Shown piece by piece: positions 1 through 11,898 of a stretch of DNA of 11,898 nt. Source of the stretch: an uncultured Paracoccaceae bacterium (GTDB taxonomy: Bacteria > Pseudomonadota > Alphaproteobacteria > Rhodobacterales > Rhodobacteraceae); the NCBI GenBank assembly GCA_913054485.1, contig CAJXHQ010000042.1, positions 1-11,898 of the forward strand, in the 5' to 3' direction. The position numbers were made by a program, and so were the translations under genes. Within the stretch, counting starts at the first letter, position 1, and every line of letters begins with the position of its first letter. The notes beneath the pieces were generated by a model that saw only the letters and a list, made by a program, of their open reading frames with translations, was not told the origin of the DNA and made no database searches.

Positions 1-40
1 CACCAGTTCCGATGCTGCGCTCAGCAGTTTGGCTTTCCAT
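1..40 (-). CDS. Start of a divergent gene, product unknown (partial)
   Basis: An ATG at 40 opens a frame that runs off the left edge. The 13 visible codons read MESQTAERSIGTG. An AGGGG ribosome-binding site lies about 9 bases upstream on the minus strand. The gene diverges from a metal-uptake operon and shares its 205-base intergenic region, where a metalloregulator gene (Mur, Fur or MntR type) is often found. Thirteen residues are too few to identify it, so that role is only a guess from position. Confidence 0.45.
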   Translation of the reverse strand, partial: MESQTAERSIGTG

Positions 41-157
41 GGTATGAAACCCCTAATTCTCCGGTGCGGAAGGTCGCATGCAGGCTGTGTAATGGCAATG
101 GAGTCCCAGTGCCGGGGTGGTAATTTTTTGACTGTTTGGACAAATTTCCACGCCCTT

Positions 158-176
158 ATTGTGAATAATTCGCAAT
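158..176. promoter_or_regulatory. Fur/Mur-like operator 1
   Basis: ATTGTGAATAATTCGCAAT is a near-perfect palindrome: ATTG-n-GAAT, one central base, ATTC-n-CAAT. It sits just upstream of the -35 element of the metal-binding-protein operon. Its core, TGTGA-N5-TCGCA, matches the second inverted repeat at 191-205. Such palindromes are typical of the alphaproteobacterial Fur/Mur family, which represses manganese and iron uptake genes. Assignment to a particular regulator is inference. Confidence 0.6.
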
Positions 177-180
177 TGCA

Positions 181-209
181 TTGACTAAGTTGCGAGCCGT
201 TCGCATATT
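181..209 (+). promoter_or_regulatory. Sigma-70-type promoter of the metal-binding-protein operon
   Basis: A -35 box TTGACT (181-186) and a -10 box CATATT (204-209) are separated by 17 bases. They match the consensus at 5/6 and 4/6 positions. The -10 box overlaps the end of operator 2, so a bound repressor should block RNA polymerase. Transcription would start near 216, leaving a leader of about 30 bases. Confidence 0.55.
191..205. promoter_or_regulatory. Fur/Mur-like operator 2
   Basis: TGCGAGCCGTTCGCA is a perfect 5-bp inverted repeat (TGCGA/TCGCA) around a 5-base spacer. It has the same design as operator 1, and the two centres are 31 bp apart, about three helical turns. It lies in the promoter spacer and touches the -10 box, a classical repression position. 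Confidence 0.6.
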
Positions 210-230
210 GAGGGCAAGTTCTGATTCTTA

Positions 231-236
231 AGGAGG
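231..236 (+). promoter_or_regulatory. Strong ribosome-binding site
   Basis: AGGAGG lies 9 bases before the ATG at 246. It fixes the start of the metal-binding protein. Confidence 0.75.
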
Positions 237-245
237 ACTCCGTCC

Positions 246-1211
246 ATGCGGATCCGGAATATTATTGCTGCGGCCCTGATGCTGGCCATTGCCCTGCCGC
301 TTGCCGCCACCCGCGCGCAGGCCGAGGCGCCGATGACGGTTGTTGCCACCACTGGCATGATCGCTGACGCTGCCCGCCAGGTGGGCGGCGATCTGGTCGA
401 GGTAAAGGGCCTGATGGGCCCCGGTGTGGACCCGCATGCCTACCGCCAGACCCGCAGCGATATTGTTGCCATGACCCGCGCCGATCTGGTGCTGTGGCAT
501 GGGCTCTACCTTGAGGCGCAAATGGAGGAGTTCTTCCATGATCTGGCGCGCAAGCGGAACGTGGTGGCCGTGGCGGAGGGATTGGACAAGAGCCTGCTGA
601 AGGCCCACGATGATTACGCCGACAAGTTCGACCCGCATGTCTGGATGACCCCGGTGCTGTGGAAGAACGTGGTTGTTGAAGTGCAAAAGGCCCTCACCGC
701 AACCCGCCCGGACGCGGCGGATGTCTTTGCTGCCAATGCCGCCGCGCATCTGGCTGATCTGGACCAGCTGATTGCCTATGGTGCTGACACTCTGAAGGAG
801 GTGCCGCAGGAGGCCCGCGTGCTGATCACCGCCCATGATGCCTTTGGCTATTTCGGCAAGGACTACGGGTTCGAGGTGCTGGGCATCCAGGGCATTTCCA
901 CCCAGTCCGAGGCCGGCCTGAACCGCATTGGAGAGCTGGTGGACGTTCTGGTCGAACGCCAGATCACCGCCGTATTCGTCGAAAGCTCCGTCTCTGACCG
1001 CTCCATGCGGGCGCTGATCGAAGGGGCTGCGGCAAAGGGCCACGAGGTCACGGTCGGCGGCGAGCTGTTTTCGGATGCAATGGGCGCCGATGGCACCTAT
1101 GAAGGCACCTATATGGGTATGCTGGATCATAACATCACCACCATCGCGGGTGCCCTTGGCGCGGACGTTCCAGGCCGCGGCATGGCCGGTAAACTGTCGG
1201 CGGGGTTCTGA
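246..1211 (+). CDS. Periplasmic metal-binding protein of a Mn/Zn/Fe ABC importer (TroA/SitA family)
   Basis: This 321-residue protein should capture a divalent metal (Mn2+, Zn2+ or Fe2+) in the periplasm and deliver it to a cluster-9 ABC importer. Residues 1-26 form a Sec signal peptide, with likely cleavage after RAQA. The family motif ATTGMIAD follows. Candidate ligands are H64 (GVDPHAY), H131 (DPHVW), H197 (ITAHDAF) and D277 (SDAMG). This His-His-His-Asp set is the TroA arrangement, and the spacing matches well. Length is normal and the frame is intact. The gene follows tandem Fur/Mur-like operators and a strong ribosome-binding site, so repression by metal is likely. In ordinary operons an ATPase and one or two membrane permeases follow. 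Here only a hybrid ATPase follows (3-base gap) and no permease is present, so the protein may be orphaned. Family is secure; metal preference is not. Confidence 0.93.
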   Translation: MRIRNIIAAALMLAIALPLAATRAQAEAPMTVVATTGMIADAARQVGGDLVEVKGLMGPGVDPHAYRQTRSDIVAMTRADLVLWHGLYLEAQMEEFFHDLARKRNVVAVAEGLDKSLLKAHDDYADKFDPHVWMTPVLWKNVVVEVQKALTATRPDAADVFAANAAAHLADLDQLIAYGADTLKEVPQEARVLITAHDAFGYFGKDYGFEVLGIQGISTQSEAGLNRIGELVDVLVERQITAVFVESSVSDRSMRALIEGAAAKGHEVTVGGELFSDAMGADGTYEGTYMGMLDHNITTIAGALGADVPGRGMAGKLSAGF

Positions 1212-1214
1212 TCC

Positions 1215-1973
1215 ATGCTGGAGCTGGCAGCCAACCTGGGCGAAGCCCCCAAGGCCGAAGACCTCTCGAAAAGCCCGCTGTCGATTCGCGGCCTGACGGT
1301 CTCTTACGGGCAGAAGCCCGCGGTGTTTTCTGTCGACATGACGGTGGAGGCGGGCAAGATGACCGCCATCATTGGCCCCAACGGGGCCGGCAAATCCACC
1401 ATGCTGAAACTGCTGGCCGGGCTTTACACGCCGGACAGCGGCCGGGTGCTGTTGGATGGCACCGGAATGGAGCAGATCGACCCGCGCGACCTGCGCCGCA
1501 ACATCGGCTATCTCGGTCAGGACGTGCGCCTGTTTGCGGGCACGCTGCGCGATAACCTGAACCTCAACCTGCTGGAGCAGGACGGCGACCGGATGATGGC
1601 GGCGCTGGATTTTGCCGGCCTCGGCCCCTTCGTACGCAGCCATCCCAAGGGGTTGGATCTTGATATCGGCGATGGCGGCGCGGGGCTCAGCCAGGGACAG
1701 CGCCAGTCGATCGGCTGGGCGCGGCTGTGGCTGCAGGATCCTGGCATCGTTCTGCTGGATGAACCCACCGCAGCGCTGGACCAGACGCTGGAACGCACGC
1801 TGGTCAGCCGGCTGGAAACCTGGCTGCACGGGCGCACCGCGATCATCGCCACCCACCGTATGCCGATCGTGGCGCTCACCAACCGCACGCTGATCCTGCA
1901 GGCCGGCCGGATGGTCGTTGATGGCCCGCGCGAACAGGTGCTGGCCCACCTCGCCGCCGGAGAAAAGAAATGA
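1215..1973 (+). CDS. Hybrid ABC ATPase: metal-importer N-terminus joined to type I secretion C-terminus
   Basis: A 252-residue soluble ATPase with every ABC motif: Walker A GPNGAGKST (54-62), Q-loop GQD (Q102), signature LSQGQ (158-162), Walker B IVLLDEP (178-184) and H-loop ATHR (H214). Residues 1-62 read as a MntB/SitB/ZnuC-type ATPase, with SIRGLTVSYGQKPAV and EAGKMTAIIGPNGAGKS. From about residue 63 the text changes to the NBD of a LapB/LssB-like type I secretion exporter: LLAGLYTPDSGRVLLDG, DLRRNIGY, LFAGTLRDNL, SIGWARLWLQDP and ATHRMPIVAL. There is no membrane domain, although exporters of this class normally carry one fused. The gene starts 3 bases after the metal-binding protein and its stop overlaps the HlyD start (ATGA). 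I infer a deletion fusion inside the Walker A coding sequence. It may fold as an NBD, but the region that contacts a permease is of exporter type, so service to a metal permease is doubtful. Confidence 0.85.
   Translation: MLELAANLGEAPKAEDLSKSPLSIRGLTVSYGQKPAVFSVDMTVEAGKMTAIIGPNGAGKSTMLKLLAGLYTPDSGRVLLDGTGMEQIDPRDLRRNIGYLGQDVRLFAGTLRDNLNLNLLEQDGDRMMAALDFAGLGPFVRSHPKGLDLDIGDGGAGLSQGQRQSIGWARLWLQDPGIVLLDEPTAALDQTLERTLVSRLETWLHGRTAIIATHRMPIVALTNRTLILQAGRMVVDGPREQVLAHLAAGEKK
1374..1424 (+). other. Inferred recombination junction within the hybrid ATPase
   Basis: These bases encode residues 54-70, Walker A and the helix after it. Upstream residues are metal-importer-like and downstream residues are type I exporter-like. 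The Walker A codons are conserved between the two families and offer the short shared sequence needed for crossover. The exact breakpoint cannot be placed without both parent genes. Confidence 0.6.
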
Positions 1974-3139
1974 GCAGCGCCACGGCCGATTTTGACAGCA
2001 CAGCGCGCGCCTCCAGCCGGATTATCCAGCTGGTGGCAATTACTGTTGCGGCCTTTGTTGGCTGGGCAGCCTTTGCCTCGGTCGACGAGATCGTGCGCGC
2101 CGACGGTCAGGTTGTCTCTTCCTCCCGCGCGCAGATCGTGCAGAACCTTGAGGGCGGCATCCTGGCCGAACTTTTCGTGACCCAAGGCGACCGGGTGAAG
2201 GCCGGCCAGATCCTGGCCAAGCTGCAGGACACCAAGTTCCGCGCCAGTGTTGATGATCTGCAGGACCAGATCGACGCGCTGGACATCCGCCGCCTGCGCA
2301 TCGAGGCCGAAATGACCGGTGCGCATGACTTCGCCGTGCCGGATGACCTGGCAGCGCGCTCCCCCGGTATTCTTGCTTCCGAACGCACGCTGCTGGCGGC
2401 CCGGCAGAATGATTTCGACGCGCGCCGCAGCGGCGCACGCGAGATCCTTAGCCAGCTTGAGGAAGAACTGGCGACGATGGAGCGGCTCTACAAGCAGGAG
2501 ATTGTTGCGCTTCTGGAAGTCAACAAGGCCAAGAAGGCCGTCAGCGATGCGCAGATCACCTATACCGGGATTGGCACCAAGTCCGAACTTGAACTGGCCG
2601 AGGAATACTCCCGCACGCTGCAGGATCTCACCTCGCGCCAGCAGGAACTGCGGCTGGCCAGTGACCAGCTGAAACGCACGGTCATTACCGCGCCGATGCC
2701 TGGCATTGTCAACAGCCTTGCCGTGACCACAATCGGCGGAGTTGTGCGCCCCGGTGAGGAGATCCTGCAGATCATCCCGCTGGGCGAGGAACTCTTTGTT
2801 GAAACACAGGTGAAGCCGGAAGATATCGCCAGCGTGGAACCCGGCCAGCCGGTCGCCATCAAGCTCAGCGCCTATGACTATACGATCTACGGCACTCTGA
2901 AAGGCGCCGTGGATTTCGTGTCAGCCGACACCTTCGAGGACCAGCGCGACCCCAATGCCCAGCCATATTACAAAGTGAACGTGCGCGTTGACCGCGACAG
3001 TTTCACCGAGCGTCAGGAAACCATCGAAATCCGCCCGGGCATGCGCGCCACGGCGGAGCTTCAGACCGGCGCAAAGACCGTTTTGAAATATTTGCTGAAA
3101 CCGCTCTACAAATCGCAGGAAGCCCTGCGCGAACGCTGA
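1970..3139 (+). CDS. HlyD-family membrane-fusion protein of a type I secretion system
   Basis: This 389-residue inner-membrane periplasmic adaptor normally links a type I exporter to TolC. It has a short cytoplasmic N-terminus, one membrane helix (about 18-36), a first biotinyl-lipoyl half (IVQNLEGGIL, 56-65, then GDRVKAGQILAKL) and a long charged coiled-coil. The second lipoyl half (APMPGIVNSLAV) leads into a beta-barrel and the usual C-terminal tail KYLLKPLYKSQEAL. It most resembles the LapC/LssD type, matching the exporter half of the ATPase before it. The ATG overlaps the ATPase stop (ATGA), with GGAG upstream, so the two are probably translationally coupled. The frame is intact, but its exporter has lost the membrane domain. 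It could be non-functional or could borrow another exporter, such as the one encoded at 5620-7694. Confidence 0.92.
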   Translation: MSSATADFDSTARASSRIIQLVAITVAAFVGWAAFASVDEIVRADGQVVSSSRAQIVQNLEGGILAELFVTQGDRVKAGQILAKLQDTKFRASVDDLQDQIDALDIRRLRIEAEMTGAHDFAVPDDLAARSPGILASERTLLAARQNDFDARRSGAREILSQLEEELATMERLYKQEIVALLEVNKAKKAVSDAQITYTGIGTKSELELAEEYSRTLQDLTSRQQELRLASDQLKRTVITAPMPGIVNSLAVTTIGGVVRPGEEILQIIPLGEELFVETQVKPEDIASVEPGQPVAIKLSAYDYTIYGTLKGAVDFVSADTFEDQRDPNAQPYYKVNVRVDRDSFTERQETIEIRPGMRATAELQTGAKTVLKYLLKPLYKSQEALRER

Positions 3140-3140
3140 G

Positions 3141-3170
3141 GCCACCGGACGCCGGGCTTTTGCGGGTGGC
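3141..3170 (+). terminator. Possible hairpin after the HlyD gene
   Basis: GCCACC (3141-3146) can pair with GGTGGC (3165-3170) immediately after the stop codon. There is no run of T after the stem, so this is at best a weak terminator or an RNA-stabilising hairpin. Confidence 0.3.
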
Positions 3171-3178
3171 AGAACGCG

Positions 3179-3202
3179 AAAAAGAGCGGATTCTCCGCCC
3201 TC
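3179..3202 (-). terminator. Intrinsic terminator of the protease gene
   Basis: Read on the minus strand, a GCGGA-GAA-TCCGC hairpin is extended outward by G-T, G-C and A-T pairs and followed by TTTTT. It lies about 25 bases after the protease stop codon, in the gap between two convergent genes. Confidence 0.6.
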
Positions 3203-3227
3203 ATACGCTTGTTCTCCGGCGCGGCCT

Positions 3228-3965
3228 TTACCCCGCTCTGTGCATCATAGCCTGAAGGGTGCTGCCAAAGGCCGTGCCGATAGAGACCGGTTTGCTGCCC
3301 ATCGCCGCTTTGGCCGAAATTACCGACACCAACCGCGGCGTTTGCCCGCTCCGCACCGCAAAAACCGGGGCGCCAGAGGCTCCGAACTCCACCTGACAGG
3401 ACATCACAAGCGTTTCCACCTGGCGGGCAAGCACATGGCAGGGCTGCTGCAGGCTCGGTGTGTTCGCCTTACGGTAAGTATAAGAGATCACACCGACAGC
3501 ATCGCCCTTTTTCGGAACGCCAGACACTTGCAGCGGCCGCACATCCTGCGGGCTGATTGAGTTTTCCAGCCGCAAGACCGCGATATCAAACCCGATCTGG
3601 GCCTGTCCCGCAGGACGGTAACGGTATTGCGGATGCACCACCGCCTTGGCAACCGCGCGTTCAGCAATTGCACGGCCCCGGTCAAGCCCCGCCTCGAACA
3701 CGATCGAAGACGGGGCAACTGGTTTCCCCGTGCGCTGATCGTAAAGGCAATGCGCGGCAGTCAGAACCATATTGGGCGCAACAAGCGTCCCGGTACACAT
3801 ACTGCGACCCAGAATGTTCAGGCGTCCAACGGCTTCCCACCCGGGAACCGACTTCACACCTGAGGTCCGATCGCTCGCAGCAACAAGGCCGGGCGTACCT
3901 ATATACAGGCAGGCCGCGACCACTCCTAGCAGTCGTCTCATCTTCCACTCCAATTTCCCACGCAT
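3228..3965 (-). CDS. Secreted trypsin-like serine protease (S1 family)
   Basis: A chymotrypsin-fold protease of 245 residues, probably periplasmic or secreted. The catalytic triad is complete: H72 in TAAHC, D127 in FDIAVL and S197 in GASGAPV. Four cysteines suggest two disulfides, C57-C73 next to the catalytic His and C176-C190 before the Ser loop. A signal peptide covers the N-terminus. If translation begins at the second Met (3941), the peptide is a clean MRRLLGVVAACLYIG type, with GGAG six bases upstream. The first Met (3965) has a closer, poorer AAGG, so the shorter 237-residue form is quite possible. The gene stands alone between a converging gene and a long gap, and ends at an intrinsic terminator. 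Its target is unknown; processing of the nearby RTX protein would be speculation. Confidence 0.9.
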   Translation of the reverse strand: MRGKLEWKMRRLLGVVAACLYIGTPGLVAASDRTSGVKSVPGWEAVGRLNILGRSMCTGTLVAPNMVLTAAHCLYDQRTGKPVAPSSIVFEAGLDRGRAIAERAVAKAVVHPQYRYRPAGQAQIGFDIAVLRLENSISPQDVRPLQVSGVPKKGDAVGVISYTYRKANTPSLQQPCHVLARQVETLVMSCQVEFGASGAPVFAVRSGQTPRLVSVISAKAAMGSKPVSIGTAFGSTLQAMMHRAG

Positions 3966-4333
3966 TCACCTTCGTTCAGGCTAGCGGCGGGAATGGGGCC
4001 AACTGTTGCAATCCACGGGCTAATTTAAGGATTGATTGTGGCAGCGTTAACGAATCCCTAACCCCCCAGTCAGAGATCTACACGATGCCAGAAAACGCTG
4101 TATTTTGCGCTACAAACATGCTGGTTTAGCTAAATTTTACTAAATATTGAAGTTATATCGCAACGAAACGCCATATCCGGTAGGCGGAATTGGATGCTGT
4201 TTGCATCATCAGGCACGCACAATTCGGGCCGGTTGCCAGCATTCCGCCCAGTTCCTGCCTCAAAGCTGGCAGGCAGAAGGCATTTGCCGGGGCCGGGTTT
4301 GTTAAGATTTGCAGCTTGGCCGCGGCGGCCAGG
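3966..4333. other. Intergenic region, partly AT-rich
   Basis: This is a 368-base gap between two minus-strand genes. Bases 4020-4180 are clearly more AT-rich than the surroundings. A palindrome TGGCCG-CGG-CGGCCA lies at 4317-4331 just after the HlyD stop, and CTGCCT/AGGCAG arms lie at 4255-4260 and 4271-4276. Neither is followed by a T-run, so termination there would not be classical. I see no convincing gene or RNA. Confidence 0.5.
4134..4163 (-). promoter_or_regulatory. Candidate promoter for the protease gene
   Basis: On the minus strand TTGCGA (4163-4158) and TAAAAT (4139-4134) are 18 bases apart, matching the -35 and -10 consensus at 4/6 and 5/6 positions. The implied leader is about 160 bases. 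AT-rich DNA gives chance matches easily, so this is tentative. Confidence 0.25.
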
Positions 4334-5623
4334 TCAGTCCTGGAGCGCTTTGCCAAGGAAGCCGAAAAACGGCGCGATCAGGTAATCGGCAAAGGTCGTT
4401 TCCCGCCCCGGGAAGATCAGCGACAGAGGCATATCGATAGAAAACCGCATCCCCGCTGGGGCTGCCGCCCGCAGCGCCTCTACATCCGCCGCGTTCAGTT
4501 CGGCCAGCCCGTCATAGCCCACCGGAGCTCCCTCGGCATCGCGCCGGGCAGAGGGAGACAGCGACCGGATGACAGCCCGCACCCGCGGGAGGTTTCGCTG
4601 TGGCAGGCCGGGGAGGGTCAAAAGGCCCTCCATGCCGGCATCCAGCTGGTCAATTTGCGCTGGCAGCACCGTGAACGCTGCCTGATAGCGGCTGCCTTCA
4701 CCGGTCAGGACCATCAGCGTTTCACCGCGTGGGGCAAACATCTGCCGGGTCGAAAAACTGAGCCCCGAGACGACACCCGCGGCCGGGGCGCGCACATCCG
4801 CTGCCTGTACAAAAGCCTCCAGGTCGATTTTCTGCCGGCGCAGCTCAGGCAGCCGCTTTTCATTGACGGCCAGGACCGTCAACAGTTCGCTGCGGAACCG
4901 CGCCTCGGCGCTTGATGCCACGATCACGGCCTGGCGGGCCTGGCTGCCAAGGCTGATGATCTGTGCCGCATCACTGCTCAGGTCGCCTTCCAGTTCCATC
5001 AGTGTTTCAAACAGCGCATCCTGCTCGGCCGCGCGGAACCTGCCCTTTTCCACCAGCCCCACCTGCCGCTCGTAGCGGTCCCGCATGGAGCTGCGCTGGT
5101 CCTGCCCTGCCGCAACCCGCGCTTCCAGAACCGCCGCCTGACGCCGCAGCGCTTCGCCCTGCGCACGGGCAGCCTGGATATCCAGAACCACTGCCCGGTA
5201 CATGGCAGCGAACCGCCTCTCGATTACGCTGGACGCCGCTGCCGCCGCCGCTTGCGAATTTTCAAGATATTCCTGCACAGCAGAGCTTTCCTGCATGAGC
5301 ACCGCAACCTGGTCCGTAATCTCCGCCAATTGCGCCGACTGCGAAGCGGTCTCCATCCGCACCAAGGATGTGCCCTCAGCGACCTTTTGATGCTCATCCA
5401 CCAGGACCTGGCCAATCCGGCCGCCGAAAGGATGCTGAATTTCATAACTGGGCCGCAGGGCTACAAGATGACCGGCTGCATGAACCGATGTAGCAAGCGG
5501 AGCCTTCAGCGACCAGGCGGCCGCCGCTGCCAGAAACAGGCCAACCAATACAAACCCGCCCCAAAGCGGCCGGGTCAGCGCTCGGGGCAGCCTTGCCTCA
5601 TCAGGTTCCGCAGCCGCGCTCAA
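4334..5623 (-). CDS. HlyD-family membrane-fusion protein (PrtE-like) of the RTX export system
   Basis: This 429-residue inner-membrane adaptor should work with the ABC exporter encoded just upstream. It has a membrane helix at about 21-38, a first lipoyl half (YEIQHPFGGRIGQVLVDEHQKV begins at residue 60), a long alanine-rich helical hairpin (about 95-270), a second lipoyl half (DVRAPAAGVVSGL) and the usual HlyD tail (FADYLIAPFFGFLGKALQD). It is only distantly similar to the HlyD protein at 1970-3139, so the two belong to different systems. The best start is TTG at 5623, overlapping the exporter stop as TTGA. I see no good ribosome-binding site, so expression probably depends on coupling to the upstream gene. 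Confidence 0.9.
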   Translation of the reverse strand: MSAAAEPDEARLPRALTRPLWGGFVLVGLFLAAAAAWSLKAPLATSVHAAGHLVALRPSYEIQHPFGGRIGQVLVDEHQKVAEGTSLVRMETASQSAQLAEITDQVAVLMQESSAVQEYLENSQAAAAAASSVIERRFAAMYRAVVLDIQAARAQGEALRRQAAVLEARVAAGQDQRSSMRDRYERQVGLVEKGRFRAAEQDALFETLMELEGDLSSDAAQIISLGSQARQAVIVASSAEARFRSELLTVLAVNEKRLPELRRQKIDLEAFVQAADVRAPAAGVVSGLSFSTRQMFAPRGETLMVLTGEGSRYQAAFTVLPAQIDQLDAGMEGLLTLPGLPQRNLPRVRAVIRSLSPSARRDAEGAPVGYDGLAELNAADVEALRAAAPAGMRFSIDMPLSLIFPGRETTFADYLIAPFFGFLGKALQD

Positions 5624-6057
5624 TGCGGCACCGCGCCGGCCGGCGCGCCTTCCCGGTGCGAGACAGCCGCAAAGAAATGAGACCTGCCATCCACGTTGCG
5701 CACCTCCATGCGGTCGCTGATCTGCGAGACCAGTGCCAGCGCGCGTTCATCCGGTTCAAGGCCACTCAAATCCGCTTGCGGCGCGCGCAGGCAGGCAGCG
5801 ACTTTCTTAAGTTTCTTCTCCGCTTCGGTCGGATTGTTTTCCGAGAGGGTGATCTCGCAGCGGCTGTCATCGAGGAACTTGAACTCGAACTGCGCCCGGC
5901 GGGAGCCCTTGGGCTTGCCGTCGGCAATCGCTGCAGAAAACAGTTCGGTGGCGATTAGCCGGGCCCGCTGGCTGAAGGGCTCGTCTCCGGCGCGGCTGAA
6001 TTGCGCGGCCACCCAATCGGACAGGTCTTGCAAGGACTCCGGCCTCAGCGGCAGCTC
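5623..6057 (-). other. C-terminal extension of the exporter, degenerate RsbW/GHKL-like domain
   Basis: About 145 codons after the NBD. The layout resembles an RsbW/SpoIIAB anti-sigma ATPase: LQDLSDWVAAQFSRAG as first helix, a helix RLIATELFSAAIADG at the N-box position, strands FEFKFLDDSRCEITLSE, then DERALALVSQISDRMEV and GRSHFFAAV as the final helix and strand. The N-box Asn is replaced (FSAA) and no DDGxG-type motif is visible, so ATP binding is unlikely. It could be a docking or regulatory module. The similarity was read by eye only. Confidence 0.45.
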
Positions 6058-7273
6058 GATCCGGCGGCGGCCGGTGCCCATGCGGCCCAGAACTTCGGAC
6101 CGCGAACCAAAGTCGCTTGCCCGGCCGTTGTCCAGCACAAGAACCTTGTCGGCCAGCCCCATGATCCCGGATCGGTGCAGCACCATGACAATCGTGGTGC
6201 CCTGCTCTTTGAGCCGCGCCAGCGCATCACAAAGCTGCCGCTCACCCTGCCCGTCCAAGAGCGCGTTGGGTTCATCCAGAAACAGATAGCGCGGAGCAGC
6301 AAAGATCGCCCGGGCCAAGGCGACGCGCTGGACCTGCCCGGCGGACAGAAGATGCTGGTCGCGTCCTGCGTCGGTGGCATAAGAATCCGGCAGCTCTGAT
6401 ATCAGGCCGTGCACACCGGCCGTTTTGGCCGCGGCCACGATCTGGGCATCCTCCGGCGCGGGGTCGAAACCGCAGATGTTATCCGCGAGGGTGCCGGGAA
6501 ACAGGGTCGCACGCTGCGGCAAGTAACCGATGTGCTGCACGAGTGTTGCCGGCGGCAGGCTGCGCACCTCGCTTTCCTCCAGGAAAACCGCTCCGATCGG
6601 GCAGGGGCTGATCCCGGCCATAGCCTCCAGCAAGGTTGATTTACCGCTGCCCGATGGTCCCACAATTGCAAGGCATTCGCCGGGTTTTAGGGCAAAGCTG
6701 ATCCGGTCCAGCCACGGCGGTGCCCCCCCGCCCCGCGGGAAGATCAGGGTCTCGCAGCGCAGGCTTCCCGACAGGTCCGGGATTTCCGTCGCTGGCGGCA
6801 GAGCCGCAGAGGCGGCGTGTTCGAGCCCGCGCAGGTCGTGCAGCAAGCCGCGCATTTGCGGCCAGGACGCCCAGGAGGCATCCAGCAAAGTCACCGTGCG
6901 GGTCAGAATAATGGACGCTGCAATCATGCCGCCGGCCGTCAGCTGACCGGCAGAGACCAGTGCCGCCCCGAGGCTAAGGCCCAGCAGCTGCGCCGCTACG
7001 CGCAAAAAGCCCAGCCCTGCCTTCTGCCCGGCACGGGAATAAATCAGGCTGTTCTCCAATGCATGGCGGTTGGCCTGCTGCAGGCCATAGCGGCGCAACA
7101 GGTTTTGCGACAGGCCCGGCATGCCGGACAGCGATGCGAAATCCGTCGCATTGGCCAGCGCCGCGGCTTCTACCCGTCCGGCCTCAGCATTGGCAGCTTC
7201 ACCTGCGCCCGTGTAATACTGCCCGGCGCAGCGCGTCAGTACCATCAGAGCGGTCACTGCGAGCGCGAGAAGG

Positions 7274-7278
7274 AAAAA
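7274..7278 (-). other. Frameshift site in the exporter gene
   Basis: This is a run of five A on the plus strand (TTTTT in the gene). Upstream codons encode LFLVHWS in one frame; downstream codons encode FFLLALAVTALMV in the frame one base earlier. A sixth T gives HWSFFLLALAV without interruption. Homopolymer runs are prone both to sequencing error and to real indels. Confidence 0.7.
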
Positions 7279-7702
7279 CTCCAATGCACCAGAAATAGAG
7301 CGGCCAGGAGCAGCGGCAGCCAGGGAAGATCGGCCAGCGACAGCGCCGCCGGCCCCTCCAATCGTCCGCTGAACTCCATCAAGCTGCGCAACTGGCCTGG
7401 GGTTCGCGGCCCCGGCGTCTGCAGGAAGCCGGGCAGGCAGACCCGTTCCACCCAGCGCGCGGAGCGCTGCAGAGTGTTTTCCCGGATGAACTCCACCGCG
7501 TGCTGCAACGCTACCGCCGCCAGCGCCAAGACCAGCAGCAGGGTCAGCGTGTGCATATTGCCGCTGGGCACTACCCGGTCCAGCACCTGCATCATGAAGA
7601 CCGGGCTGATCAGCACAGCCAGGTTGCTGACGGCGCTGAGCAGCACCAGCGGCAGGATCATCTGCCGCAGTGCAGAGAGTTTTTTCTGGGACACGGATCC
7701 GG

Positions 7703-7709
7703 CCTCCTT
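7703..7709 (-). promoter_or_regulatory. Ribosome-binding site of the exporter gene
   Basis: AAGGAGG on the minus strand, eight bases before the GTG at 7694. It touches the stop codon of the RTX gene, so translation of the two is probably coupled. Confidence 0.7.
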
Positions 7710-7972
7710 CAGAGGATGAAATTGCTTTCGTCCAGGTCATCGGGATCAATGGATTTCAGGATCAGCTTATCGCCCGCCTGACCGCCGGTCAGCTGGCTGA
7801 GGTCAATCTCGGTAGCCCAGCCTGCATCTTTCATCATGGCCTTCACATCTGCGAACTCCAGCCCGTAGGCAGAGAGATCGATAGTGTCATGAGCGGCCTC
7901 AAAGTCATGCACCATATCGCGGCCGCCGCCGGACACAACAAAGGTGTCGCCTGCCCCGTCCGCGCTCCAGTT

Positions 7973-8334
7973 GCCACCCCAGAGATGGTCATTGCCGGCG
8001 CCGCCTTCCAGCGTGTCCGACCCGGTACCGCCCACCAGCTTGTCCGCGCCGGTGCCACCCTCCAGAGCATCGCTGCCGCTGCCGCTGCCGCCGCTGAGGA
8101 AATCCTTTCCGGTACCGCCAGAGAGGCTGTCATCGCCGCTGCCGCCCATCACTTTGTCGTCTCCGCTGCCGCCGCCGAGCGTGTCATCGCCGCTATTGCC
8201 ATGCAGGCGATCATGGCCGGAATCACCTTGCAGAAAGTCATCATCAGCCCCGCCCATCAGCTCATCATACCACCGCCGCCGAACATCCGGTCATCGCCCT
8301 CGCCGCCGCGCAACGTGTCATTGCCACCGGAGTT
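7973..8334 (-). repeat. C-terminal RTX repeat block
   Basis: Roughly a dozen nonapeptide units of GGxGxDxLx type, such as GGSGDDSLS, GGTGADKLV and GGAGNDHLW, forming Ca2+-binding parallel beta-rolls. The frameshift near 8268 falls inside the block, where DNA is repetitive (GGT and GAT codons). Confidence 0.85.
8261..8275 (-). other. Frameshift site in the RTX gene
   Basis: The upstream frame reads RMFGGGG then MMS and a stop; the downstream frame reads DELMGGADDDFLQGD. One extra G after GGTGGT gives FGGGGDDELMGGADDD, which fits the nonapeptide pattern exactly. It is a one-base deletion between about 8268 and 8269. Confidence 0.7.
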
Positions 8335-9651
8335 CTCAGTGACCGAAGGGTTACGGATCAGCACCGTGGCCTCCGCATCCACCTCCATGAAAGCATCTGC
8401 CGAGCGCGGATCGACCGCACCGTCGTTGCTGCCGGTGGCTTGCGCTGCGCTCATCAGCTCGCAATAGGCCGCGCCGCCGCCCCAGTCAGCCTCCACTTTG
8501 AAAATGCCCCCGGTCGCCCCGGTCGAACCGTCCATGTCATGGTCGCCTCGGTTCAGGCCGAAGTAGAGATTGCCGTCACCATCCAAGAAGACCGCGCCAT
8601 AGGCTCCCTTCGGCATACCGCCAGCCATGCTTCCGCCGACCAGGGTTCCGTTGATTGGGAGGGTTGTGATTTCGGGCGCGCCACCTTCCTCGATGTCCGA
8701 AATATCCAGCCGCACCAGCAGCCCTTCGCCGCCATGGCTCTTCGGAGGAGCCACCGCGTAGAACGCGCCATCTTCAGAATTATAAGCGATGTCGTAGGTA
8801 CGCCCGCCAAAGAGATCATCCGGCAGATCGAAATGGACCGATTCCGGATCGCCGTTGGCATCCAGCTTGTCGACATCGATCCGCGTCACACGGTTCAGCC
8901 CGGACTGGAAAGTCCAAAGATTGCCCTCATCATCGAAATCGCCGACGTAGTCATAGACCGGCGTATCACCGATACGGTAGGCGTTGCCCTGGGCATCCAG
9001 CGCCACAAGGTTGCTGGATTCAACCGGGTTGCCCAAGGCATCCGTACCCGCCTTCTTGGCAATGCCGTAGATCAGGTCGTCTTGGGTGTTGAAGCCGATC
9101 GCATTTATTTTCAGCCCAGTCGGATCGCCCGCCAACTGGTAATCACCGCTGGCGGTATCAAATACGTTCAGCTGCCCGTCGATCACCTGGTAAAGCTTGG
9201 CCTGTCCGGGCGCAAAAGCGGCAACCTCGACGCTTTCGCTGCCAACCGTGATCTCCTTATTGTAGTAGCTGACTGCTCCGCCTGCGTGGATTTCAGGCCC
9301 TGCAGCCGCCTGCGGCTGCACCTCGCGGAACGTAAGCTCGCCATCGCTGCCATCCCCGACAACCTCCACCTCATGGGTCTGAAACACGCCCGAAACAACG
9401 CTGAACGTACCCGCAACTTCACCGTTCCAGAGGACTTCCACGGTCCCGGAACTGCTGCCGCCTTGCAGGTTAGCCGCCAATTCAAAGCTGACAGTGTAGA
9501 TCTCATCCGCTTCGGTCTCGAAGGACTGGGACATGCATTCATGCCCGTCTTCCATCATGTATTTCCAATTTCCAGCGGCTCCGAACTGGCTCATCGAGTT
9601 GAGCGCCGCCTGCCCGTCACCGCCGGCAAGCAGGTTCTCCCCCTTGCTGTC

Positions 9652-9867
9652 GCCGTAAACCAGATCATTGCCGTCGCCCGCGTTGACGATGTCGGCCCCA
9701 TCGCCGCCTTCGGCTGAATCATTGCCAGCTTCAAGGTTCAGCGTGTCATTGCCGCTGCCCCCTAAGGCCGTATCCCATCCGGTACCCGCATTGATCAGAT
9801 CGGCTCCGTCGCCGGCGTCCAGAACATCCTGTCCGCCGTTGCCCAGCAGCACATCATCGCCGGCCCC
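9652..9867 (-). repeat. N-terminal RTX repeat block
   Basis: About eight units, including GAGDDVLLG, GDGADLINA, GSGNDTLNL and GDGNDLVYG. It is separated from the C-terminal block by about 1.3 kb of non-repeat coding sequence. Confidence 0.8.
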
Positions 9868-10195
9868 GGTCTGGATCACGTCATTATAGTCTCTGGTGAC
9901 CGGCTTACTGGCCGTGTTGATCAGGTCCGGGTTGTACACCCAGCGGCCGTCGACAAAGGTCCATTCATCGCCAACCATATCCCCGGCCGCCAGATCGCTG
10001 CCTGGGCCGGTAGAAATGGTGTCGCTGCCGGCATGGCCATTGATATGATCCACCTCCGTTTTACCCGCCACGGTACCGCCCGGCCCGGTGGAGATCACAT
10101 CATCCTGCACCGTCCCGATGATCTTATGGACCGTATCTCCACTTTCTTTTTTTGCCATTTCACTCACCCTCGGAAATTACTCGCTACACAGACTT

Positions 10196-10227
10196 TTCCG
10201 GCGTAAACCGGAATAAATCGGTTATTC
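10196..10227. promoter_or_regulatory. Two adjoining inverted repeats upstream of the RTX gene
   Basis: TTCCGG-CGTAAA-CCGGAA (10196-10213) and GAATAA-ATCGG-TTATTC (10211-10227) share three bases, so both RNA hairpins cannot form fully at once. They lie in the 106-base gap between the exported-protein gene and the RTX start. They could be a regulator site, an RNA processing or attenuation element, or chance. Confidence 0.35.
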
Positions 10228-10264
10228 ACATCCGTTAACAGCCTCCCGGAAGCGGCAGGCCGCG

Positions 10265-11710
10265 CTATTGCTGAGACTGGAAATACCGCGACAAAAGTTG
10301 ATAATCCTGCGGCACCGCGGCCGCATCAGGTGACGGCGCGGCTTCGCTTTCCAGCTCCTGCAGAATCTGCTCAACCACATCATCTTGGTACAGCTGGCCC
10401 GCCGCCGCAGGCAGCGCCGCCGCGTGCGGCTGCATAGGTGCGGCCGCACGGGCAGCAGGCGACGTTGCGGGCAGCCCTGCCGCCGGCGCCCTCATCTGCA
10501 GCACCGCCACTGCCGTGCCGAGATCCATTCCAAGCTCGCTCATCAGGTATTGCAGCCGGCGCGCTGTCTGCTCGGCCTCGCTTTCCTGCACCGCTGGCGC
10601 GCCCTGCTGTCCCAGGGCTGCGCTTTGGAGCTGATCCGCCAGCAATACCGCCCCGCCCATTGGCGGCAGGGCGGTCCCGGCCGGGTCAGCCGCCGCCGGC
10701 AGCCCCGTGCCGGCCGGCCAGCCGGGGCGGGTTTCCATTCCGGCACCGCCGCCTTGCTGCTGTAAAGCACTGATTTCCTGCCGGATCTCCTCCGCAACCT
10801 GCTGCAGCTCGGCGACCCTGTCATTCAGGCCGGCGTCTGCCGGCTGCACTGGAACCGCATCCGCAGGCTGGCCGCTGCGCTCCAGCAGCAGCTCTCGCAG
10901 AATGTTCAGTTCACCGCGCACCTCCGCCACTTCGCTTTCAACGGGCGCGATTCCGCCAGAGGGGGCAAACCCCGGGCCCAGGATCTGAGGCTGCGGCATG
11001 GGAGAGGCCCAATTGCCGGCCTGCGTCATCGCGGCAGTGCTGTCTTCACCCTGCGAATTGGGCACCGGCCAGCCGCGCGGCAGCACGCTGTAATCCTGCC
11101 GCGCTGCGATCCAGCGCAGGTAGGCCGTGACAGCCGAAAAGCCTTTCAGCGACATCTGTGTAACCTGGTTGTCGCCGCGCCGGACCGTCAGCTCGCTGCC
11201 GGTGGCCAGCAAAGTCTCCATCTGCATACCCAGCGGCTGCAGCACCCGGTCGGGAATCTGGATCTCATTCACCGCTTCGGAGACAAAGAAACTGTCGCCT
11301 TGCTGCACACCTTCGATCTTCAGCTGCAGCTGGCCGCGGTTGTTCAGGAGAACAGTAAGATCGCCCTTGCGGCCCATGCAGGTGTAGGTGCGCGGCCGGC
11401 AGACCACTTCGAACACATCGGTGTCAAGCCGGGGCGTCGGCGCAAAACGGGCATAGCCGTCCGGGTCGAAGCGGAAATAAACCCCCTCCACCAGGCCTTC
11501 CTGAAACGTCGGCCAGCCAAAAGCGCCGCGCAGCGACTGGCGGGCTTCCCGTGCGCCGATGGCAAAGGGGATCGCCGTGTCCAGGATCGCATTCTCCGAC
11601 GCAAAATTTGCCGGGTCCGCGGCCGCAGCCTGTGTCTGGGCAAGGGCAGCTGGCGCCGCGGTCAGGCCGGCCAGCGCCGCAGCGGCGAGTGCGGTTTTCA
11701 AAGGTGCCAT
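10265..11710 (-). CDS. Exported protein with coiled-coil and Pro/Ala-rich tail, function unknown
   Basis: This 481-residue protein has a clear Sec signal peptide (1-24, ending AALA). The N-terminal half (about 35-210) looks globular, with two cysteines seven apart (C104 and C111) that could form a disulfide. The stretch TGSELTVRRGD to MSLKGFSAVTAYL recalls the end of IalB-type periplasmic proteins, but only weakly. Two helical segments follow: 255-278, and a coiled-coil at about 295-318 (NDRVAELQQVAEEIRQEI). The rest is low-complexity Ala/Pro/Gly/Gln sequence. The start codon overlaps the previous stop (TGATG), and the RTX gene follows after 106 bases, so it is probably in the same operon. 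A periplasmic role alongside RTX secretion is possible. I do not recognise the family. Confidence 0.8.
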   Translation of the reverse strand: MAPLKTALAAAALAGLTAAPAALAQTQAAAADPANFASENAILDTAIPFAIGAREARQSLRGAFGWPTFQEGLVEGVYFRFDPDGYARFAPTPRLDTDVFEVVCRPRTYTCMGRKGDLTVLLNNRGQLQLKIEGVQQGDSFFVSEAVNEIQIPDRVLQPLGMQMETLLATGSELTVRRGDNQVTQMSLKGFSAVTAYLRWIAARQDYSVLPRGWPVPNSQGEDSTAAMTQAGNWASPMPQPQILGPGFAPSGGIAPVESEVAEVRGELNILRELLLERSGQPADAVPVQPADAGLNDRVAELQQVAEEIRQEISALQQQGGGAGMETRPGWPAGTGLPAAADPAGTALPPMGGAVLLADQLQSAALGQQGAPAVQESEAEQTARRLQYLMSELGMDLGTAVAVLQMRAPAAGLPATSPAARAAAPMQPHAAALPAAAGQLYQDDVVEQILQELESEAAPSPDAAAVPQDYQLLSRYFQSQQ

Positions 11711-11898
11711 CAGAAGTCTGCCTCCATTTGAACGGAATGCCGCAGCGCCAAAAGCCAGTCGTCCCGCTGAGGCGGGTCCGGGTAATGGCGCATGCGGCGG
11801 ATGTCCTGATCGCGATAGGCGGTGTACCAGACCTCGGTATCACCAGTGTAGGGCGTCAGGATCGTGCCTTGCACTTTGTGCAGAAGCGAGGTGAGAAT
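11710..11898 (-). CDS. C-terminal fragment of an unknown protein (partial)
   Basis: The last 62 codons of a minus-strand gene whose beginning lies beyond the right edge. They start ILTSLLHKVQGTILTPYTGD and end LLALRHSVQMEADF, rich in charged and aromatic residues, with no signal or membrane segment in this part. The TGA shares its last base with the next ATG (TGATG), which argues for a real, translationally coupled gene. The family is not recognised. Confidence 0.65.
   Translation of the reverse strand: MLTSLLHKVQGTILTPYTGDTEVWYTAYRDQDIRRMRHYPDPPQRDDWLLALRHSVQMEADF

Follow-up and report, generated by a model that had tools for sequence, protein, structure and literature searches.

The window, that is the whole stretch of DNA that was analyzed, is the entire contig C42 (11,898 bases) from the bin of an uncultured Paracoccaceae bacterium. 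The bin comprises 3,837,489 bases in 692 contigs, is 75.02% complete and 1.28% contaminated, and the smallest contig encountered in it is 2,007 bases. The left part of the window contains an open reading frame (ORF) at 1215–1973 on the forward strand, which runs uninterrupted from ATG to stop and encodes a protein of 252 amino acids. It is preceded by a sitA-like gene, which is 88.5% identical to the orthologue at locus L046 of Rhodobacteraceae bacterium Alg231_04 (the sister strain), and is followed by a lapC-like gene, which is 87.7% identical to the orthologue at locus L016 of that strain (Table 1). These neighbors, a metal-binding protein (PF01297) and an HlyD protein (TIGR01843), are the ones named in an earlier note on this DNA, made from the letters alone. 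The note was also right that the frame is kept with all ABC motifs complete, and that the parent metal permeases and the exporter membrane domain are absent from the window. The gene at the left end of the contig is presumably deoxyribose-phosphate aldolase-like, and the protease gene lies 3' of lapC in the sister strain too.

Table 1. Features in the left part of the window, with the evidence for each assignment.
Feature	Position	Strand	Evidence
First 13 codons of a gene divergent to sitA, at the left end of the contig	1..40	-	L046 counterpart 7834-8823
sitA-like gene, ZnuA/SitA-type metal-binding protein (operon of parent 1)	246..1211	+	PF01297, E 2.9e-76
sitB-like part of the ORF, codons 1-63	1215..1403	+	60/62 residues as in L046 SitB
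Junction interval, TGCTGAAA	1402..1409	+	Alignment of both parents
Part of the ORF assigned to lapB, codons 64-252 and stop	1404..1973	+	189/189 residues as in intact LapB P0122
lapC-like gene, HlyD-family adaptor (operon of parent 2)	1970..3139	+	TIGR01843, E 9.8e-98
Trypsin-like protease	3228..3965	-	PF00089; synteny with L016 12029-12817

The remainder of the window, 4071–11898, holds a second type I secretion cluster (HlyD, PrtD, RTX and a 481-amino acid protein without a family). The sister strain's DNA shows only seven weak local matches to this stretch, which may be an island specific to the strain or the product of a second join. The PrtD-like exporter gene is split into two frames on the reverse strand, 5620–7749 and 7254–7694, where the 146-residue frame corresponds to TIGR01842 positions 1–141 and the 709-residue frame to positions 152–542. 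As the match is split in this way, there is a frameshift near 7254–7310, reflecting either real decay or a base error in contig C42. Two RTX-repeat frames, 7709–8257 and 8257–10167 on the reverse strand, adjoin at 8257 and resemble a single RTX protein interrupted by a further frameshift; the larger frame has a match to DUF6923 as well. The 481-amino acid protein (10265–11710, reverse strand) has an apparent signal peptide, as seen by eye, and matches nothing in Pfam or NCBIfam at E-values up to 0.001.

Intact versions of both parent operons, which the earlier note had thought worth seeking in relatives, are found in the sister strain. Here, sitA-sitB-sitC-sitD and tolC-lapB-lapC, as we name these genes by homology, are separate operons with open frames. 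When the ORF was split at residue 62 and each half searched separately against 90 loci, the top relative of the front half was the sister strain's SitB (L046), with 96.8% identity (60 of the first 62 residues), and that of the back half was its LapB, located on another contig (L016), with 91%. These are the two parents that the note had identified. In a comparison with 15 SitB and 30 LapB orthologues, the front half scored 119 bits against SitB versus 30 against LapB, and the back half scored 354 bits against LapB versus 48.5 against SitB. The identity of the back half to L016 LapB is 91.5%, and to the best SitB, 29%. The two halves thus did not hit the same family, and the outcome by which the note's claim would have been refuted did not occur. 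Intact control genes were assigned to one family for both halves in 45 of 45 cases, leaving the window as the sole exception, in a control that is partly circular as its family labels were taken from the earlier half-matches. These controls (30 LapB, 15 SitB) were drawn from 75 loci, the rest of which are outside the identity limits; L047, a more distant ATPase, was left out of the SitB set.

The same change is seen at the level of DNA. Window positions 21–1409 are colinear with L046 8804–10195 at 82% identity and positions 1374–4070 with L016 10190–12871 at 77%, so that the change in DNA synteny and the change in protein family coincide in the ORF. In G001, the sole other genome of the same genus in the comparison, the two halves lie on two contigs with coordinates that agree with L046 and L016.

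Judged by these alignments, codons 1–63 of the ORF are sitB-like and codons 64–252 are lapB. The chimeric sequence and its breakpoint are direct observations. The junction interval consists of bases common to both parents in the sister strain and is positioned just past Walker A, the whole of which (GPNGAGKS) is sitB-like. Residue 63 is sitB-like as well: it is Met in L046 and Leu in P0122, an intact LapB discussed below, and Met is found here in 1 of 30 LapB orthologues (L033). The earlier split after residue 62 was correct in giving the ORF two parts, but not in its position, since Met63 is still sitB-like and the join at 1402–1409 is past Walker A. The lapB part carries the Q-loop, the LSQGQRQ signature, Walker B and the H-loop, with motifs located by eye.

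A single LssB model, TIGR03375, spans the nucleotide-binding domain (NBD), covering residues 25–248 of the 252-amino acid protein, and the chimera is therefore invisible to whole-protein profiles. The score is 279.6 bits versus a cut-off of 693.1, with profile positions 469–694 of 696 covered. A LapB/LssB exporter has a membrane domain fused to the NBD and scores over the cut-off, and this protein does neither. For SitB/ZnuC, metal ATPases should be best over the whole NBD, and here this holds for residues 1–63 only. The coverage of residues 25–248 by one profile is what would be seen if the ORF were an established, stand-alone LapB-type NBD with its own N-terminus, that is, part of a split exporter with no fusion at all. 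This reading is scarcely tenable: the front is 97% SitB, synteny switches at the junction, and the other 62 strong matches in the family survey described below are all full-length, edge-cut or frameshifted lapB, in a test where many short retrieved proteins come from short contigs and are known without genomic context. Separately, the upstream codons, which are 97% SitB, led to rejection of the idea that lapB is truncated N-terminally and merely given a spurious start upstream.

The closest known systems reflect the two parts of the ORF. In Ruegeria pomeroyi DSS-3, sitABCD corresponds to SPO3363–SPO3366, and passages of one study call these experimentally validated manganese ABC transporter genes (PMC4334477). 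The ORF is like the SitB of the roseobacter manganese importer SitABCD in codons 1–63, in Walker A and in having sitA upstream; it is unlike it in everything past codon 63 (Q-loop, signature, Walker B and H-loop). In addition, neither sitC nor sitD follows 3' of the sitB part in the window, so that an importer operon is not present here. According to a passage in PMC8277102, Pseudomonas fluorescens uses its LapEBC system to export the adhesin LapA. The ORF is like a LapB/LssB-type exporter (TIGR03375) in codons 64–252 and in the downstream lapC/HlyD, as the HlyD/LapC adaptor that adjoins such exporters is encoded at 1970–3139. It is unlike these exporters in that approximately 550 residues, the entire membrane domain among them, are missing from the N-terminus and Walker A comes from SitB.

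If the fusion were real, it should recur in at least one further independent genome or assembly, and this was not seen in the genomes, loci and proteins listed. In 61 genomes, including the bin's own, of which 48 gave some match, a single match across both halves was found in the own genome only, among the matches listed (all but the weakest). A family survey of 248 genomes, which includes the own genome and partly overlaps the previous set, yielded 63 strong matches (E up to 1e-80) in 62 genomes, 60 of them in open frames of at least 711 amino acids. The remaining three are the window, a lapB in G236 cut by a contig edge and a frameshifted lapB in G190 (contig C37), and there is no second fusion among the 247 other family genomes. 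The gene in G190 (L158, 1432–3667) is a second lapB copy in two frames split near 2255; residues 37 to 758 are matched over the two, which indicates one frameshift. Taking 60% identity over 40 residues for the front and 60% over 100 residues for the back, none of 75 loci matched both halves, and neither did any of 359 proteins besides the window's own (the best 120 each of 7913, 6145 and 8000). Plasmid records gave 59 matches, all below 60% identity with the best at 55%, and most of the best 40 of these 59 are annotated as type I secretion permease/ATPase. Among the matches listed, the window protein has no other member and occurs on one contig, and the "new NBD" that the earlier note had allowed for finds no support beyond contig C42.

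The note had explained the ORF as the result of a deletion through the Walker A codons that welded two operons, leaving a relic or a working hybrid NBD. Consistent with a simple deletion, the window lacks the parent permeases and the LapB membrane domain, and none of these was found in the bin, where the search for sitC returned one 31% paralogue and that for the membrane domain returned paralogues only. However, the flanks that a deletion must remove, the right arm of sit and the left arm of lap, persist in the bin. Contig C112 (8,202 bases) carries the sister strain's genes preceding lapB, including the tolC-like one, and ends after 152 bases, or 50 in-frame codons, of a lapB frame that is open and has an ATG of its own; the encoded residues agree with P0122 at 47 of 50 positions. 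Contig C219 (5,866 bases) starts in the final codons of sitD (SRTGAPAGV-stop, as at the C-terminus of the sister SitD) and continues through the sister strain's post-sitD genes, mutL included. C235 matches one of the genes downstream of sitD at 74%. In the bin, the outer end of each operon is thus directly observed, at the end of a contig and in an open frame.

With about 1.5 kb missing between them, C112 and the right part of C42 would form an ordinary lap operon as in the sister strain, and the left part of C42 and C219, with about 2.7 kb missing, would likewise form an ordinary sit operon. The middle pieces, namely the lapB front (about 1.5 kb) and the sitB back with sitC and most of sitD (about 2.7 kb), were not found in the bin, as the missing-half search of the bin gave only paralogues or short local matches besides the window, the C112 and C219 flanks and C235. 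This absence is unsurprising because about 25% of the genome is missing from the bin.

The distance between the genes also argues against a deletion. A strong SitB match (62–100% identity) was present in 9 of 16 genomes searched; sitB and lapB are on different contigs in four of these nine, and in the five relatives where they share a contig they are 0.72, 0.94, 0.99, 2.1 and 3.1 Mb apart (linear distance). Unless the flanks in the bin come from a second strain that was binned together with the first, they contradict the deletion, which we consider very improbable.

Further evidence against a deletion came from the selection analysis, in which dN/dS and dS relative to the sister strain were calculated by NG86. 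The dN/dS values are 0.100 for sitA, 0.031 for the sitB front, 0.066 for the lapB back, 0.074 for lapC and 0.159 for the protease. Relaxed selection is evident in no part, and constraint on the lapB half equals that on lapC, which leaves the idea of a relic unsupported. The corresponding dS values are 0.75, 0.70, 0.77, 1.14 and 1.27; those of lapC and the protease exceed those of both halves of the ORF, so that equal divergence is not uniform along the contig. The similar dS of the two halves fits an origin in one species, and a cross-species join was judged unlikely on the same grounds.

With the operon arms kept in the bin and a spacing of 0.7–3.1 Mb, a real event is likelier to have been an exchange or inversion than a deletion. 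If sitB and lapB had undergone a reciprocal exchange or an inversion through their homologous Walker A codons in this strain, the outcome would be the fusion together with a reciprocal lapB-front/sitB-back gene, and both transporters would have lost their normal ATPases. The outer ends of the parent operons persist, as they would after a non-lossy exchange, the frame is kept, and the two homologous sequences are joined in register at a point where they share 8 bases, which is hard to obtain by a plain k-mer misjoin. Moreover, sitB and lapB are in opposite orientation in G129, the arrangement that gives an inversion. In the other four of the five relatives, however, they have the same orientation, and a single exchange would then produce a deletion of at least 0.7 Mb and no inversion. 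In addition, the bin yielded no reciprocal product, and the fusion was encountered only once in the genomes, loci and proteins surveyed. An intact LapB of 741 amino acids, P0122, is directly observed in another assembly; its last 189 residues are identical to the window and its first 50 match C112 as given above, and it departs from the window at junction residue 63 (Leu versus Met). On the SitB side, the closest full-length proteins among those listed are P0241 and P0242 (96.8% and 95.2%, respectively, over the 62 front residues), and none of those listed is an intact SitB identical to the window front. A real exchange or inversion is therefore unlikely on this evidence, although it retains appreciable weight.

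How the two genes could have been joined in the data depends on the bases that they share. In 450 sitB-lapB orthologue pairs, the longest exact in-register run has a maximum of 19 and a median of 8 bases, and none of the 450 has 21 or more across Walker A. Leftward from 1409, the window is identical to lapB for at most 8 bases in 30 orthologues, and this limit holds in this species too, because P0122 has Leu63 and the Met and Leu codons differ in the first base. The top outside match to the junction region, in 73 own-genome pieces that cover part of the genome, is one of 21 bases (1382–1402) to C249, a contig which holds other ABC ATPase matches and is not lapB. As no pair has 21 shared bases, a plain de Bruijn misjoin is unlikely where k is at least 21, and a chimeric read at low depth or a mismatch-tolerant merge is therefore needed. 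An explanation in which the conserved bases act as a k-mer hub was weakened by these results. Within 66 contigs, 12 contig ends were found inside an NBD, and two of these are in Walker A (C296 and C500) versus about 0.5 expected if ends were even (author's estimate), which is suggestive only of clustering. In the same bin, the start of L162 (C296), the end of L149 (C500) and the start of L168 (C405) break within Walker A or at the ABC signature, as if ABC motifs were weak points of the assembly.

Taken with the outer ends in the bin, the single occurrence and the intact LapB elsewhere, we consider it likely, with good but incomplete confidence, that the ORF is a chimeric join made in the data at conserved Walker A DNA from two intact genes. 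The ORF is probably no new gene, and the join is probably a product of how this fragmentary genome was sequenced or assembled. Both parent genes, sitB for a manganese importer of the SitABCD type and lapB for a type I secretion system of the LapBC/TolC type, are probably intact in the living organism, and would have been joined via a chimeric read or a mismatch-tolerant merge in a bin that is fragmentary and probably thinly covered. We infer that read depth is low, that the join lacks support from reads and that the cell has complete copies of both genes. Passages in PMC8172020 link misassembled chimeric contigs in metagenome bins to k-mer graphs and highly similar genomes. The present case is like the chimeric contigs described there in its single occurrence, its fragmentary bin, the join at conserved sequence and the parents at contig ends; it is unlike the k-mer chimeras of those passages in having no more than 8 exact bases that are demonstrably shared, which calls for a chimeric read or mismatch-tolerant merge. 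Against an artifact, an in-frame, in-register join is also to be expected of real homeologous recombination.

SitB-type ATPases work with separate SitC/SitD permeases, and LapB-type NBDs are fused to their own membrane domain. The 252-amino acid protein has the full NBD motif set and no membrane domain. It is improbable, yet worth bearing in mind, that a recent homeologous exchange via Walker A swapped the N-terminal parts of the importer and exporter ATPases. If so, a stand-alone hybrid NBD, composed of the importer P-loop part and the exporter Q-loop, signature and Walker B, would lie between sitA and lapC, and the reciprocal LapB would carry a SitB-type NBD. Coupling to the metal permeases is unlikely because the contacts with membrane partners (the Q-loop and the helical part) are LapB-like, and the protein would most likely be an ATPase that is inactive or uncoupled. 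A real fusion would be a natural experiment on the exchange of NBD subdomains between an importer and an exporter. If, as is most likely, the fusion is not real, the ORF is a warning that the conserved Walker A codons of a genome's many ABC ATPases can yield in-frame, motif-complete chimeras that resemble new genes, and that comparison with other contig ends and sister loci exposes them.
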